Assembly: GCA_945877175.1 (NCBI GenBank)
Contig: CAMCRC010000002.1
Coordinates: 1 to 64,000 of the forward strand
DNA length: 64,000 bases
Direction of reading: 5' to 3'
Source: Klebsiella pneumoniae
GTDB lineage: Bacteria; Pseudomonadota; Gammaproteobacteria; Pseudomonadales; Pseudohongiellaceae
The position numbers and the translations under genes were made by a program. Of the stretch, positions 5,208-38,745 are shown piece by piece (positions within the stretch are counted from its first letter, which is position 1; each line of letters starts with the position of its first letter). The notes beneath the pieces are model-generated. The model was not told where the DNA came from and did no database searches. It was given only the letters and a program-made list of their open reading frames with translations.

Positions 5208-5516
5208 TCATGGCGTGAACCAGAACTCCACTTCATCGGTGGCCACGTCGAAGCGTGCCGCGTGTTCCACATGGGCTGCCACGTGGTACCAGTCGCCCAC
5301 GCCATGGCGCGTGGTCATGCCGTTCTGCGTGAGGATGAGTTCACCGCGGGTAATGACGCCATAATTGTCGGTGTCGTGGGTGTGCGCAGGGATGCTCGTG
5401 TCTGCTGCATAGGAGGCAAACAGGACATCCGCCCCCTTGGCCTCAAGCTTGTAGGCATCGAAACGGCCGTCAAAGAGAGGCAGCTGGCGGATGCGGTCGG
5501 GGTACTGGCCGGACAT
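5208..5516 (-). CDS. Cupin-domain protein
   Basis: IPAHTHDTDNYGVITRGELIL cupin motif; overlaps the stop of the M20 peptidase gene. Confidence 0.7.
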   Translation of the reverse strand: MSGQYPDRIRQLPLFDGRFDAYKLEAKGADVLFASYAADTSIPAHTHDTDNYGVITRGELILTQNGMTTRHGVGDWYHVAAHVEHAARFDVATDEVEFWFTP

Positions 5517-6931
5517 TACTGCGGCGTCCCCGCGATCTCCTCCACCACCTTGTAGAAAGTCTGCACGAAGCGGTACAGCTCCGCCTCGATGATGCGTTCC
5601 TGATCGCTGTGGGAACCAAAGCCCAGCGGCCCGTCTTCCGCATCAATGCCCGGCCCCACGCCATAGCACTGAATGCCACGGGCGCGCAGATAAGCCATGT
5701 CGGTGGCCCCGGTGCTCAATACGGGCAACACGGGAGCGCCGTAGCTTTCGCCAAATACCGACTCTATGACGCGATAGAGATCGGTGTCCAGCGACGTCGA
5801 GGCGCCGGGGCGCTGGTTGCGCGACCCCCAGTCCACATTCACGGCCGGGTCATTGATCACCTCACGCACCATTTCCAGGAAGGCCGGTGCGTCTTCGTCG
5901 GGCAGCAGGCGCACGTCCAGCGTGGCGGTGGCTTCCGACGGAATCACGTTGGAGCGATAGCCACCGTCGACAATGTTCGGCGAGATTGTGCTGAACAGCA
6001 CGGCCGCGTTGCGGGGCTCGTACTGCTTCAGATAGTTCACGGCCTCCTGGCCTTCGGCGGAATACGGACTCAGCACCGCGTTGTAGCGGGCAGAGGCTTC
6101 CGGTTCGGAGATAGCGGCCAGGCGCGAGAAGTAGGACGTGGTGGTGTCGCTCAGACGAATGGGCGGCTGCCAGTCGGCAATGGTGGCTACCGCACGGGAG
6201 AGCGCCACGATGGCATTGGATTGCAGCGGCACCGAGCCATGTCCGGCCACGCCATTGCTGGTCAGCTGAATGCCGCGTGGCAATTTCTCGACCGTCTGCA
6301 CCGAGGTGTGGAATGCCGCCCCATTCTGGCGCACCACGCTGCCGCCTTCGGCCAGACAATACTCGGCGTCGATGGCGGGGAAATGTTCGTTCACGATGAA
6401 CTGAATGCCGATCTGCGTGGCACCCTCTTCGCCGGATTCCGCCAGCAGAATCACGTCGCGGTCCAGCGCCACGCCCTGACGATGCAGCAGGATCAGCGTC
6501 ATGAGCGACGCCACCAGATTGTCCTTGTCGTCCAGCGTGCCGCGCCCGTAGATCCAGCCGCTGTCTCTCTCGGCACTGTGGGGCGGGAAGGTCCATTTGC
6601 TGGCGTCCACGTTCACCGTGTCCTGGTGCGCCATCAGCAGCAGCGGGCGCTTGCTGCCGTTGCCATTCAGGCGGGCCACGATGTTGGGCCGGTCTTTCTC
6701 GAGGGAAAACACCTCGTAGGCGATGCCTTCGGCGTCCAGAACGCCGGTGATGTAGCGCGTGAGGTCTACTTCGCGACCGGGTGGATCAGCGGTGTCGATG
6801 CGCACCATGGCCTGAAAGTGTTGCAGGGTTTCGGCATCCAGTGCCGTCCAGTCCAGGTCCTGCGCGAACAGGGGTGAGGCACTCAGGCACAGCATGGCAG
6901 CGACAAGCGGCTTGCGGGAAAGACGGATCAC
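5516..6931 (-). CDS. M20 family metallopeptidase, exported
   Basis: LLLMAHQDTVNV, GRGTLDDKDN, ESGEEG motifs; GTG start precedes signal peptide VIRLSRKPLVAAMLCLSASPLFAQ; longer upstream ORF extension looks spurious. Confidence 0.88.
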   Translation of the reverse strand: MIRLSRKPLVAAMLCLSASPLFAQDLDWTALDAETLQHFQAMVRIDTADPPGREVDLTRYITGVLDAEGIAYEVFSLEKDRPNIVARLNGNGSKRPLLLMAHQDTVNVDASKWTFPPHSAERDSGWIYGRGTLDDKDNLVASLMTLILLHRQGVALDRDVILLAESGEEGATQIGIQFIVNEHFPAIDAEYCLAEGGSVVRQNGAAFHTSVQTVEKLPRGIQLTSNGVAGHGSVPLQSNAIVALSRAVATIADWQPPIRLSDTTTSYFSRLAAISEPEASARYNAVLSPYSAEGQEAVNYLKQYEPRNAAVLFSTISPNIVDGGYRSNVIPSEATATLDVRLLPDEDAPAFLEMVREVINDPAVNVDWGSRNQRPGASTSLDTDLYRVIESVFGESYGAPVLPVLSTGATDMAYLRARGIQCYGVGPGIDAEDGPLGFGSHSDQERIIEAELYRFVQTFYKVVEEIAGTPQ

Positions 6932-7095
6932 AATGGGACTCCCAGAGATTCTTGTGGTGATTGGGCGGGCGCCAGATGGCCTGATTAGTCTGCAACGGGC
7001 AGGCAAAGTCAAGCAGGGCGCGGCTGTGGCTGCAATCCTCATGCAAGGAGGGGGCCACGGTGTGAAGGAACCGACCGGTGTGGGAGCGGGCCTTG

Positions 7096-7659
7096 CCTGT
7101 GGGAGCGAGCCCTGCTCGCGAACAGTCAGGGCAATTGCGGGGACCTGCCCGGCCCTGGGGAGCACCCGACTCGTTCTGCGGCTGACCCGCACACGTCCCG
7201 TGTGCCCTCGCTTCCCCAGGAGCCTCGGTCTCCTGGCTCACTCGGTGCGGGTCTTTTATGCCGCTGAACGAGTCGGGCACTCCCCAGGGCCGGGCGTTGT
7301 GCCACGCGACAGGCCTGGCAGTTTCGGTCTGCGCGCTTCGGCAAAGTTCTGGTTCCACCACAACGTTTGAAGAGGCGGAGGACGCGTCGCGACAGCGCCT
7401 GTTTTGCCGTCGCGTGACTCGCCTAGCGCTGCTTGAAGGAGACAGAGGCCAGTCGGCTGGCACAGGGCGAGGTGTCGGGAGGGGGCAGGGCCGTTCAGCG
7501 GCATAAAAGGCCAGCGCCGAGCGAGGAAAAATGACCTTGGGCATTTTTCGGAGAGAGGGAAGCCTGGAGGGCCGCAGGTCAGCCGCAGAACGGCCCTGCG
7601 CCCGCCCGACACCGGGATAGTACAGTGGGTTGTTCGCGAGCAGGGCCCGCTCCCACAGG
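7096..7659. repeat. Non-coding inverted-repeat mosaic with REP-like ends
   Basis: Terminal arms 7096-7124 and 7631-7659 are inverted repeats (28/29 identical); at least four further internal inverted-repeat pairs. Confidence 0.85.
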
Positions 7660-7685: not shown

Positions 7686-8375
7686 TCAGGACACATCCGG
7701 CGACACAATCCCCCGCCGCGACGCCTCCAGTGCCGCCTCTGCGCGGCTGGAGATATTCAGTTTGCTGTAGATCTGCTTCACATAGCCCGAGGCCGTGTTG
7801 CGCGTGATGTTCAGGAATTCCGCCACCTTGGCCGTGGTGTAGCCCTTGGCGATCAGGCCCAGCACGTCGCGCTCGCGAGCCGTCAGGCGGGTGGCATCGC
7901 GGTCTTCGCGGGGGCCAAAGAATCCCAGCAGGCGCCGGGCAATGGCGGGCGAGAGCGGCGGCTGGCCCTCGGCGATGCGCTGCAGCATGCCGGTCAGGTC
8001 CTCGCGGCTCTGATCCTTCAGCAGATAGCCCGACGCACCGGCGCCCAGCGCGGCAAACAGATGGGTGTCATCGTCAAAGACACTGGTCACCACCGACAGC
8101 ACATCGGGGTGCTGGCGGTTGAGCTCGTCGATCAGGTCGATGCCCGAGCCATCGGGCAGGCCGATGTCGATCAGCGCCACCTGCGGCAGCCGGCTGCTCA
8201 GGCGCGAGCGCGCGTCGGCCAGGCTGGCAGCGGTGTCGATCTGAATGCCGGGAAAGGCTTCGCCCATAGCGGCGATCAGCCAGTCCCGCGCGTCGGGCAG
8301 GTCTTCCACGATAAGTCCGTAGTGCACGGCAAGCCTCTGGGTCTTCTCGAGACCGGTTTTGTCTGATGGGAACAC
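7686..8375 (-). CDS. LuxR/NarL-family response regulator (orphan)
   Basis: Receiver LIDIGLPDGSG and C-terminal LTARERDVLGLIAKGYTTAKVAEFLNIT helix-turn-helix. Confidence 0.9.
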   Translation of the reverse strand: MFPSDKTGLEKTQRLAVHYGLIVEDLPDARDWLIAAMGEAFPGIQIDTAASLADARSRLSSRLPQVALIDIGLPDGSGIDLIDELNRQHPDVLSVVTSVFDDDTHLFAALGAGASGYLLKDQSREDLTGMLQRIAEGQPPLSPAIARRLLGFFGPREDRDATRLTARERDVLGLIAKGYTTAKVAEFLNITRNTASGYVKQIYSKLNISSRAEAALEASRRGIVSPDVS

Positions 8376-36474: not shown

Positions 36475-38745
36475 ATGACGCTTACCAATATCGACACGCT
36501 GTCACTCCTTCCGCCGCTGAGCATCAACCTGGGCGACCTGCGCAAGGGGATCAGCAACTACCACGTGGATGTGCGCATAAGCCCCCGCTTTGCTGCCGAT
36601 GTCAGGCGCCTGGCAACGGCGCTGACCCAGCAGGCCACCACGCAGAGCGCCCAGCCGGTGGATTTCAGCGCCCCATTCAACGCGCTGCGCGCAAGCTATC
36701 TGGACGTGATGACGGGATTGCTGCACCGCGTGAAGACAGACTTGAGCCGCGACAGTATCCAGCTGCTGGAATTTGCCCTGCTGAAGTTCATCCTGGTGAC
36801 CACACGCGCCCAGCTCGATGAGATGATTGACGCTCTGAAGGCGCGCACCTCTGAATCTCAGGAGCGTTCGTCCGCCAACGCTCTGCTGACCAACCAGCGT
36901 CTGTTCTGGCTGCAAAAGAATTACGACGCCATCCTTTTCAATGTGAACAGCCAGCTCTTCGCCCAGCTGGAACGGGTCGAGTCACGGCAGCTCGCGGAAG
37001 TGCGCACGCAGTACATGCCAATGGACGCACACAATGTGCTGGATCTTCGGCTCAACCCGATGCTGTGCTCAAGTGAGCCAGGGGCAAATACCTTCCTGAT
37101 CGACCAATACCGTCTGTGGGGGGGCGATGGCGAGGATGCCGGATTCAATTCTCTGAATGATGGAGTGGAGACTCTGTTGGGACTGCACATTCCAGAGCTG
37201 AGCATTGCACCGCTGATGGCGGCACCCGGCAGCGGCACTCCCGAGCTTTATGACGAAATGGGCGGTCTGTTTCAGACGCAGAAATTCATGGGCCTGGCCA
37301 GTGACATGAAAAGCGAATTGACGGAAGACTTCTCCTGGCTGGAAACGCCAGAGAATCTGACGGCACTCTTCGACATTGGCCGCCAGGCCGAAGCATTGCT
37401 GGATACCCGTCGCAACGCCGGCTGGGGGGCCTGGTGGGAGGCCCGCAAGCCTGTCAGCAATAGGCGCAAGGTTCTGGCCAGTGTCACGCGGCAATGGCGC
37501 AAAAAGCGCCTGTTCACCATGCTGATCGCCTCGCGACACGTCAAAAGCCTATGGTCTCCCGCCCTGGCGGAACAGATCGAAGGGCGCTTTCTGTGTCAGT
37601 ACCTGTGCGGCCAGATCGATGCAAAGAAGCTGCAGGCCAGAGCACTCAATGGCTATACCTTCACTCCGGCGCAGATGAAGCTGTTTGGCGAGGCTATCAG
37701 GCAGATCAAGCAGGAGGCAGGCCCGCGGGCACTGGAAAGTACGCTCGGCATTCTGCAGGATATCTGTCGTTTCCGCCGCCACCTCAAGTATTACCGCCTG
37801 GCTCACCGGGCCTTCAACCGACTGCACATTCTGCGCAGCGAAGAAGAGCTGAAGCTGTCACGCGAGGCCAACTCGCTCTATTCGCTGCTGACCTCCAGCG
37901 AACAGCAGGACGATCAGGACCGTATCGTGCATCACGCCATCATCAAGGCGGGTGTGCGTGGCTCCACGACTGTCACGGAAGAATTGCAGGCCAAGGCTCT
38001 GAATCCGGCTTCGTACTTCAGTCTGCGCTTCTTCAGCCCGATCAATGCGCTGCTGCCTGTTTACGGAGCCAGCAAGGTGTTCATCGAAGGTGACGCCGTC
38101 ATCCTGAGCCTCCTCGAGCATGAAAAGAGCCCGCAGCAATGGTTCGCAGTTGCCAGGGCCTGCGGCCTGGCCAGAGCCATGCTCAATGTAGTGCACGCCA
38201 ACAATCTGCATTCCGAGCAGATGGGCCTTCCCAAGCTGGAACTGGGTATCGGGCTTTGCTATGCCCCGGCAGCGCCGCTGTTTCTCTATGATGACGAGAA
38301 ACCCATCATGATTTCGGGCGCCATCGGCAAGGCAGATCGTCTGTCTTCCTGCACCTGGAAGCTGCGGCGCCTCATCCAGCCCGGTGTATTCAATGTGGAA
38401 GTGTTCGCGCTGGCCGACGGCGAGCCGGGCAGAGGGGAAAAGGGCCAGAACACCATTCGCTACAACGTGAACGGCATTCTTCTGGATAACCCTGGCTTCG
38501 AAAAGCTGCAGCAGGAAATCGTGCTCAAGCGCGTCAGCGTGCGCATCAACGGTGAAAGCGTGGCGCTGCACGTCGGAAAATTTCCTGACGTGAACGGCAA
38601 GTCACATGATCTGGTGATTCGGGAAGGACGCGTGAGGCTTTGGAAGGACGAGGCCCCGGTGGAGGGCCAGGTCTCGGACGAGCGCTTCTACGAAGTCGTC
38701 ACCAATCGCAAACTGATTACACAGCTGACGGCGCCTCAGGCCTGA
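36475..38745 (+). CDS. Large protein of unknown function (756 aa)
   Basis: Long clean ORF, no recognised catalytic motif; antisense ORFs are shorter and low-complexity. Confidence 0.85.
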   Translation: MTLTNIDTLSLLPPLSINLGDLRKGISNYHVDVRISPRFAADVRRLATALTQQATTQSAQPVDFSAPFNALRASYLDVMTGLLHRVKTDLSRDSIQLLEFALLKFILVTTRAQLDEMIDALKARTSESQERSSANALLTNQRLFWLQKNYDAILFNVNSQLFAQLERVESRQLAEVRTQYMPMDAHNVLDLRLNPMLCSSEPGANTFLIDQYRLWGGDGEDAGFNSLNDGVETLLGLHIPELSIAPLMAAPGSGTPELYDEMGGLFQTQKFMGLASDMKSELTEDFSWLETPENLTALFDIGRQAEALLDTRRNAGWGAWWEARKPVSNRRKVLASVTRQWRKKRLFTMLIASRHVKSLWSPALAEQIEGRFLCQYLCGQIDAKKLQARALNGYTFTPAQMKLFGEAIRQIKQEAGPRALESTLGILQDICRFRRHLKYYRLAHRAFNRLHILRSEEELKLSREANSLYSLLTSSEQQDDQDRIVHHAIIKAGVRGSTTVTEELQAKALNPASYFSLRFFSPINALLPVYGASKVFIEGDAVILSLLEHEKSPQQWFAVARACGLARAMLNVVHANNLHSEQMGLPKLELGIGLCYAPAAPLFLYDDEKPIMISGAIGKADRLSSCTWKLRRLIQPGVFNVEVFALADGEPGRGEKGQNTIRYNVNGILLDNPGFEKLQQEIVLKRVSVRINGESVALHVGKFPDVNGKSHDLVIREGRVRLWKDEAPVEGQVSDERFYEVVTNRKLITQLTAPQA

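Follow-up and report, generated by a model that had tools for sequence, protein, structure and literature searches.

A divergent twin of structured modules within inverted REPs, probably one of a family of undescribed dispersed non-coding elements

The intergenic block between a LuxR-type response regulator gene (7686-8375, minus strand) and an M20 peptidase gene is composed of two homologous structured modules, which lie on opposite strands, point outwards and are enclosed by an inverted pair of Pseudomonas-type REPs (Table 1). All positions refer to the window, i.e. the whole 64,000-nucleotide stretch analysed, and its own genome is called G000. The block is probably a divergent twin of undescribed dispersed, non-coding and non-autonomous structured elements, the two ends of which would act as folded-strand signals. 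The fold of the modules is strongly conserved while much of the sequence is not, hence they have the appearance of a new family of mobile structured repeats.

The sequence-only reading of the block had named a series of inverted pairs, and all of them were found where it had placed them. Three pairs delimit the architecture: 7147-7182/7260-7295 (92% complementary over 36 positions), 7471-7502/7582-7613 (91% over 32) and 7079-7124/7631-7676 (87% over 46), the latter made of REPs. The terminal arms, which match at 28 of 29 positions and had been called REP-like, are real REPs in inverted orientation. The view that crossing pairs make the block a mosaic had to be given up: 7148-7175/7267-7294 and 7471-7496/7588-7613 represent the P1 stems of separate modules and form no pseudoknot, while 7173-7187/7577-7591 and 7253-7270/7492-7509 represent one core motif in two oppositely oriented copies. 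Cross-pairs are also present at 7172-7212/7552-7592 and 7237-7316/7446-7525, and the cross-pairs GTTCTGCGGCTGACC and CGTTCAGCGGCATAAAAG occur because modules 1 and 2 are homologous copies in opposite orientation. Folding of the 598-nt block gave z values of -10.9 (plus strand) and -14.2 (minus strand), i.e. both strands lie far below their shuffles. The listed start of the M20 reading frame (5516-7192) at 7192 crosses module 1, and its true start probably lies near 6931. The covariance model R2, which was built from the module family, has only two certain matches in the window; a third match at 37494-37597 (20.4 bits) lies inside a long ORF and was set aside as probably due to chance.

Table 1. 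Features of the intergenic block (window positions).
Feature	Position	Strand	Details
Left REP	7096-7124	+	CCTGTGGGAGCGAGCCCTGCTCGCGAACA; inverted pair with 7631-7659; same REP beside many other G000 modules
Further half REP	7079-7096		Next to left REP
Module 1 including P1 arms	7147-7295	-	Points left; P1 arms 7147-7171 and about 7271-7295
Module 1 conserved core	7166-7274	-	R2 match, 114.8 bits, E 3.5e-27
Spacer between modules	7296-7448		Unconserved among G000 copies except module leaders
Module 1 5' leader	7299-7310	-	GTCGCGTGGCAC, inside spacer
Module 2 5' leader hairpin P0	7449-7460	+	CCAG-TCGG-CTGG, read in the sequence
Module 2 including P1 arms	7471-7613	+	Points right; P1 arms 7471-7496 and 7588-7613
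Module 2 conserved core	7488-7598	+	R2 match, 120.6 bits, E 1.1e-28
P3 hairpin of module 2	7528-7549	+	Approximately AAAAATG-ACCTTGGG-CATTTTT; helix 4 of family structure
Right REP	7631-7659	-	TGTTCGCGAGCAGGGCCCGCTCCCACAGG; inverted relative to left REP

Among the BLAST matches read in G000, the copies have a core of about 90 nt with two covarying hairpins in common, and their arms differ from copy to copy yet pair. A complete module comprises approximately 130-200 nt, namely a long, hypervariable and near-perfectly paired P1 stem and a conserved three-way junction that takes up about 90 nt. In an alignment of 67 modules (A1), the structure runs from P1 (19 variable and five conserved pairs) through an AUAAARG internal loop and P2 to a junction with P3 and P4, and the conserved loops are AUAAARG, GAGACC/GGCUC and a GGA-type P4 loop. 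Paired cells amounted to 96.8% in A1 compared to 75.3% after shuffling and about 40% for slid controls. Changes on both sides affect 35 of 47 pairs, and the covariation reached 0.552 versus 0.149 after shuffling. P3 alone is paired in 99.4% of the cells and has both-side changes in seven of its ten pairs. The leader hairpin P0 likewise covaries at the equal position of other copies (CCAG-TCGT-CTGG, CCAT-TCGC-ATGG, CCAC-TCGT-GTGG). Copies are 81% identical over the first 30 nt of the core but only 43% over the P1 arms; an arm pairs with its own partner at 13.1 of 15 positions versus 8.3 when the arm is swapped from another copy. These perfect but variable stems would fit selection for pairing alone.

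The same fold was found in 33 independent copies from outside the genus (A3), in which 90.6% of the cells are paired, 33 of 37 pairs changed on both sides and covariation is 0.735 versus 0.187; A3 was aligned to a covariance model and thus leans towards it, nonetheless the slid controls fall to 33-49%. Of the A3 members, L123 alone had been used to train R2. In copies such as L191, L193, L199 and L203, the P1 stem comprises 20 to 30 pairs although its sequence is unrelated between them. Taken together, the family is shown to share a conserved fold while much of its sequence varies.

The two-module arrangement is not peculiar to the window. All 24 adjacent module pairs that R2 detected in the genus are divergent (about 22 once orthologues are removed), and outside the genus nine of 13 are divergent, two +- and two --. 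Both +- cases (L195, L202) are joints between tandemly duplicated twins, which form -+-+ arrays. The divergent twin is regarded as the canonical unit, because all genus pairs and most pairs in other families are divergent. Type-B twins constitute a single homologous unit of about 480 bp, in which the left module can be told from the right and the ends are fairly sharp (GTAGATTCTAACGG ... CCCGGGATCTCCAAAAG), and in one type-B subfamily the arms are common to its members. Solo modules are frequent in G000. A candidate for an autonomous version, with a gene between a - and a + module (G000:C13, 9.4-11.4 kb), was discarded, the gene by inspection looking like a membrane transporter. As a separate observation, locus L191 (genome G794, 1501-1874) carries a twin between an engB-like GTPase gene and polA; in other Gammaproteobacteria, the engB-polA locus holds the small RNAs Spot 42 or ErsA.

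Further copies, for which a search of the genome had been proposed, were found. BLAST of the block against G000 gave 235 matches, many of them REPs, and the 2.64-Mb genome in 126 contigs contains about 40 modules, essentially all of them intergenic. With one module as query, BLAST detected copies in G000 and nine of 13 genus-mates and none in 43 other genomes of the family or order. A 26-base core pattern was present in 53 contig stretches from GTDB species; almost all of these belong to uncultured gammaproteobacterial MAGs, and several come from lakes or groundwater judging by their titles; one short contig labelled Hydrogenophaga is probably misbinned. The covariance models R1 and R2 extended the range to at least 15 of 392 genomes of the order in nine genera and to two more distant genomes (G147 and G1138). 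Copy numbers and range are underestimates, because the bulk searches score only nine candidates per genome. The distant module L123 (G147, 1511-1627) is a single copy directly after an hsdS-like gene, by inspection a type I restriction specificity subunit. Searches of viral contigs with the genus core pattern and of plasmids with the L123 module gave no match.

The earlier statement that no protein explains the block agrees with our searches, in which no protein, IS or Rfam family matched. Rfam 15 at a permissive threshold returned no family for the window region, for L123 or for ten loci outside the genus, the best matches being at chance level (E 0.67, 0.9 and 0.071) and far under the gathering scores. 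Integron attC sites, hammerhead and twister ribozymes and omega-RNAs showed no matching signature and had no Rfam match either. No earlier description was found in the openly searchable literature, though one may exist elsewhere under another name. Another repeated near-perfect palindrome, AAATTTGGGGTCAGAGTAAAAATACAG/CTGTATTTTTACTCTGACCCCAAATTT, was seen at L137, L160, L164 and L165 (G013, G009, G008), where it occupies two unrelated convergent intergenic sites in genus-mates.

Mispairs within the stems indicate which strand is folded. The genus modules contain 71 G-U but only 12 A-C mispairs (p=2e-11; 61 versus 12 distinct contexts), and 54 versus 19 were counted outside the genus. Since G-U far exceeds A-C, and the opposite strand would have A-C mismatches, one specific strand is selected to fold; what selection acts on is thereby shown to be a single strand, folded and of stated polarity. 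This excess would fit RNA and equally a single-stranded DNA signal that is read by an enzyme. The proposal of a structured RNA comes close with regard to the strongly covarying fold, but the G-U excess does not distinguish RNA from single-stranded DNA.

The main rival reading is that the modules are transcribed and act, in cis or in trans, at the ends of genes, for instance in 3'-end processing, protection or the blocking of convergent read-through, and that the copies spread because they are useful to the host. The strand-specific G-U excess and the deep covariation with conserved unpaired loops speak for it, as does the position of the modules: 12 of 22 sites are flanked by convergent genes compared to 13-18% expected (p about 1e-4 or less, with gene calls from a simple script), and most out-of-genus module clusters are likewise found between convergent genes. 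However, the range is patchy, several close relatives lack the modules, and there is no shared neighbour gene; 20 neighbours scanned with Pfam proved to be ordinary genes without a candidate enzyme. Moreover, by inspection neither a conserved promoter nor a U-run terminator was recognised at module ends: no conserved -35/-10 elements lie upstream, and the downstream consensus has no T-run after P1'. We regard such a host-functional RNA as less likely than the preferred reading. Reading TGGCAC as a sigma-54 promoter was rejected on spacing, and binding of CsrA/RsmA via the GGA loop of P4 is a weak candidate, as this loop varies outside the genus (AGA in L202, GCA in L210).

Comparisons of orthologous sites show modules to be present or absent. 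The interval between the M20 and LuxR genes measures 758 bp in the window's genome and 168, 114 and 137 bp, without a module, in the relatives G006, G007 and G012. The argH site, so named from the translations of its flanks, measures just 30-190 bp in nine relatives, all without a module. The two empty sites compared permit no reading of a target-site duplication, because their intergenic flanks are too diverged to define the ends. The idea that the core had inserted into terminator loops already in place, which would account for perfect yet variable arms, was rejected here, as no arms are present at the empty sites of G006, G007 and G012. The suggestion of a composite non-autonomous, BIME- or MITE-like element is supported in part, by the dispersed, covarying twin and the site empty in three relatives, but the REPs are not shown to belong to the element (see below).

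Copies also exchange sequence. At the argH site, G000 and G002 have the same module arms with different core types, therefore gene conversion exchanged the cores; the module of G006 at this site is a different one. At site L015, flanks and core are common to three species, and both arms differ. A recombination product, as considered before, is not needed to explain the present locus, though gene conversion and chimerism occur between copies. Two side observations concern larger rearrangements. L026 (end of G000:C115) and L079 are identical over more than 250 bp on one side from mid-core and diverged on the other side, which suggests a recent transfer or a chimeric contig. L011 differs from L061 (8 kb, CAISYX genome) by an inversion with ends at modules or REPs, suggesting recombination between inverted copies.

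Chimeric-looking copies such as L026/L079, with their identical 3' half, and the many copies at contig ends would fit collapsed repeats in a MAG, and an assembly artefact had been mentioned as a possibility. However, the window twin is situated 7 kb into a contig of 104.7 kb, MAGs obtained independently in different projects have the same architecture, and fold and divergent orientation recur across families. Such an artefact can hardly be the explanation.

The inverted REPs could suggest that the block is a REPIN with structured cargo, in which the REPs are the mobile ends and a RAYT moves everything between them. Inverted REPs indeed surround the window twin and many solo modules in G000, and a RAYT gene, the search for which had been proposed as a check, exists in the genome: L032 (G000:C122, 145-597) encodes a RAYT-like Y1 transposase of 151 aa, and REP sequences lie in the flank upstream of it. 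It is, however, likely the cognate of the REPs and not of the modules. The twins L024, L035, L049 and L074 have no REP nearby, and the module loci are without any RAYT relative. Furthermore, Y1_Tnp is missing from five module-bearing genomes (G622, G642, G807, G1138 and the incomplete G662) besides the likewise incomplete G002, while the module-free genus-mates G001, G003, G007 and G012 have two to four each. Since several module copies lack a REP and the occurrence of Y1/RAYT does not follow that of the modules, membership of the REPs in the element is not shown, and we consider mobilisation as REPIN cargo improbable. The REPs may rather be an independent repeat family using the same tolerated sites.

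For the preferred reading, a divergent twin of non-autonomous structured elements, we propose that each module would be a structural end-signal that is read as a folded single strand, either RNA or single-stranded DNA, and that an inferred enzyme reading the folded modules would move or copy the twin. In P1 only pairing, not sequence, would matter, so that the arms could drift by compensatory change, possibly through template switching, a known route to hairpin stems (PMC8794818), while the cores would be homogenised by gene conversion. Going further, the twin could tentatively be placed in a new class of mobile elements recognised by structure: an enzyme so far connected with no repeat family would mobilise it through its folded strand, and the arms would be free to vary if paired.

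Large structured RNAs or DNAs that covary across several bacterial families and occur in many copies per genome without an Rfam entry are rare. Transcription, fold and movement are open to direct testing, given the covariance model, several empty sites and examples that number well above a hundred. Moreover, the paired but freely changing P1 represents a natural test case for the role of template switching in making and maintaining hairpins (PMC8794818).

Among known systems, REPs and REPINs with their RAYT (TnpA-REP) are high-copy palindromic intergenic repeats of 20-40 bp with conserved sequence (PMC3116915, PMC8266576). The twin resembles them in its inverted doublet unit, predicted folded form and compensatory stem changes, but each half is a three-way junction of 130-200 nt with a variable outer stem, and it is not linked to a Y1 transposase. 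BIMEs, mosaics of alternating palindromes, are matched by the alternating arrays at L195 and L202, whereas the modules are much larger and have an RNA-like multi-helix fold with conserved junction loops. Overall, the family behaves as an outsized REPIN or BIME would, yet it shows no link with RAYT and has no Rfam relative. MITEs are likewise short, non-coding and non-autonomous, with inverted ends and empty sites in relatives; the twin differs in lacking sequence-conserved terminal inverted repeats, as its outer arms show, and a cognate DDE transposase. Other structured intergenic repeats, such as ERIC/IRU, bcr1-bcr18 (PMC3446304), BRE of Betaproteobacteria (PMC3110155) and further families (PMC2267715), are similarly dispersed, intergenic, foldable and mobile-like, and sometimes transcribed. 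They were described from other taxa and the modules have no Rfam relation to them; neither hypervariable yet paired arms nor an obligate divergent twin is known to be reported for them, and the separation from BRE follows its published description rather than its sequence. Judged by the features of the broad class that includes ERIC, bcr and BIME, the modules are multicopy, intergenic and united by a common predicted fold.
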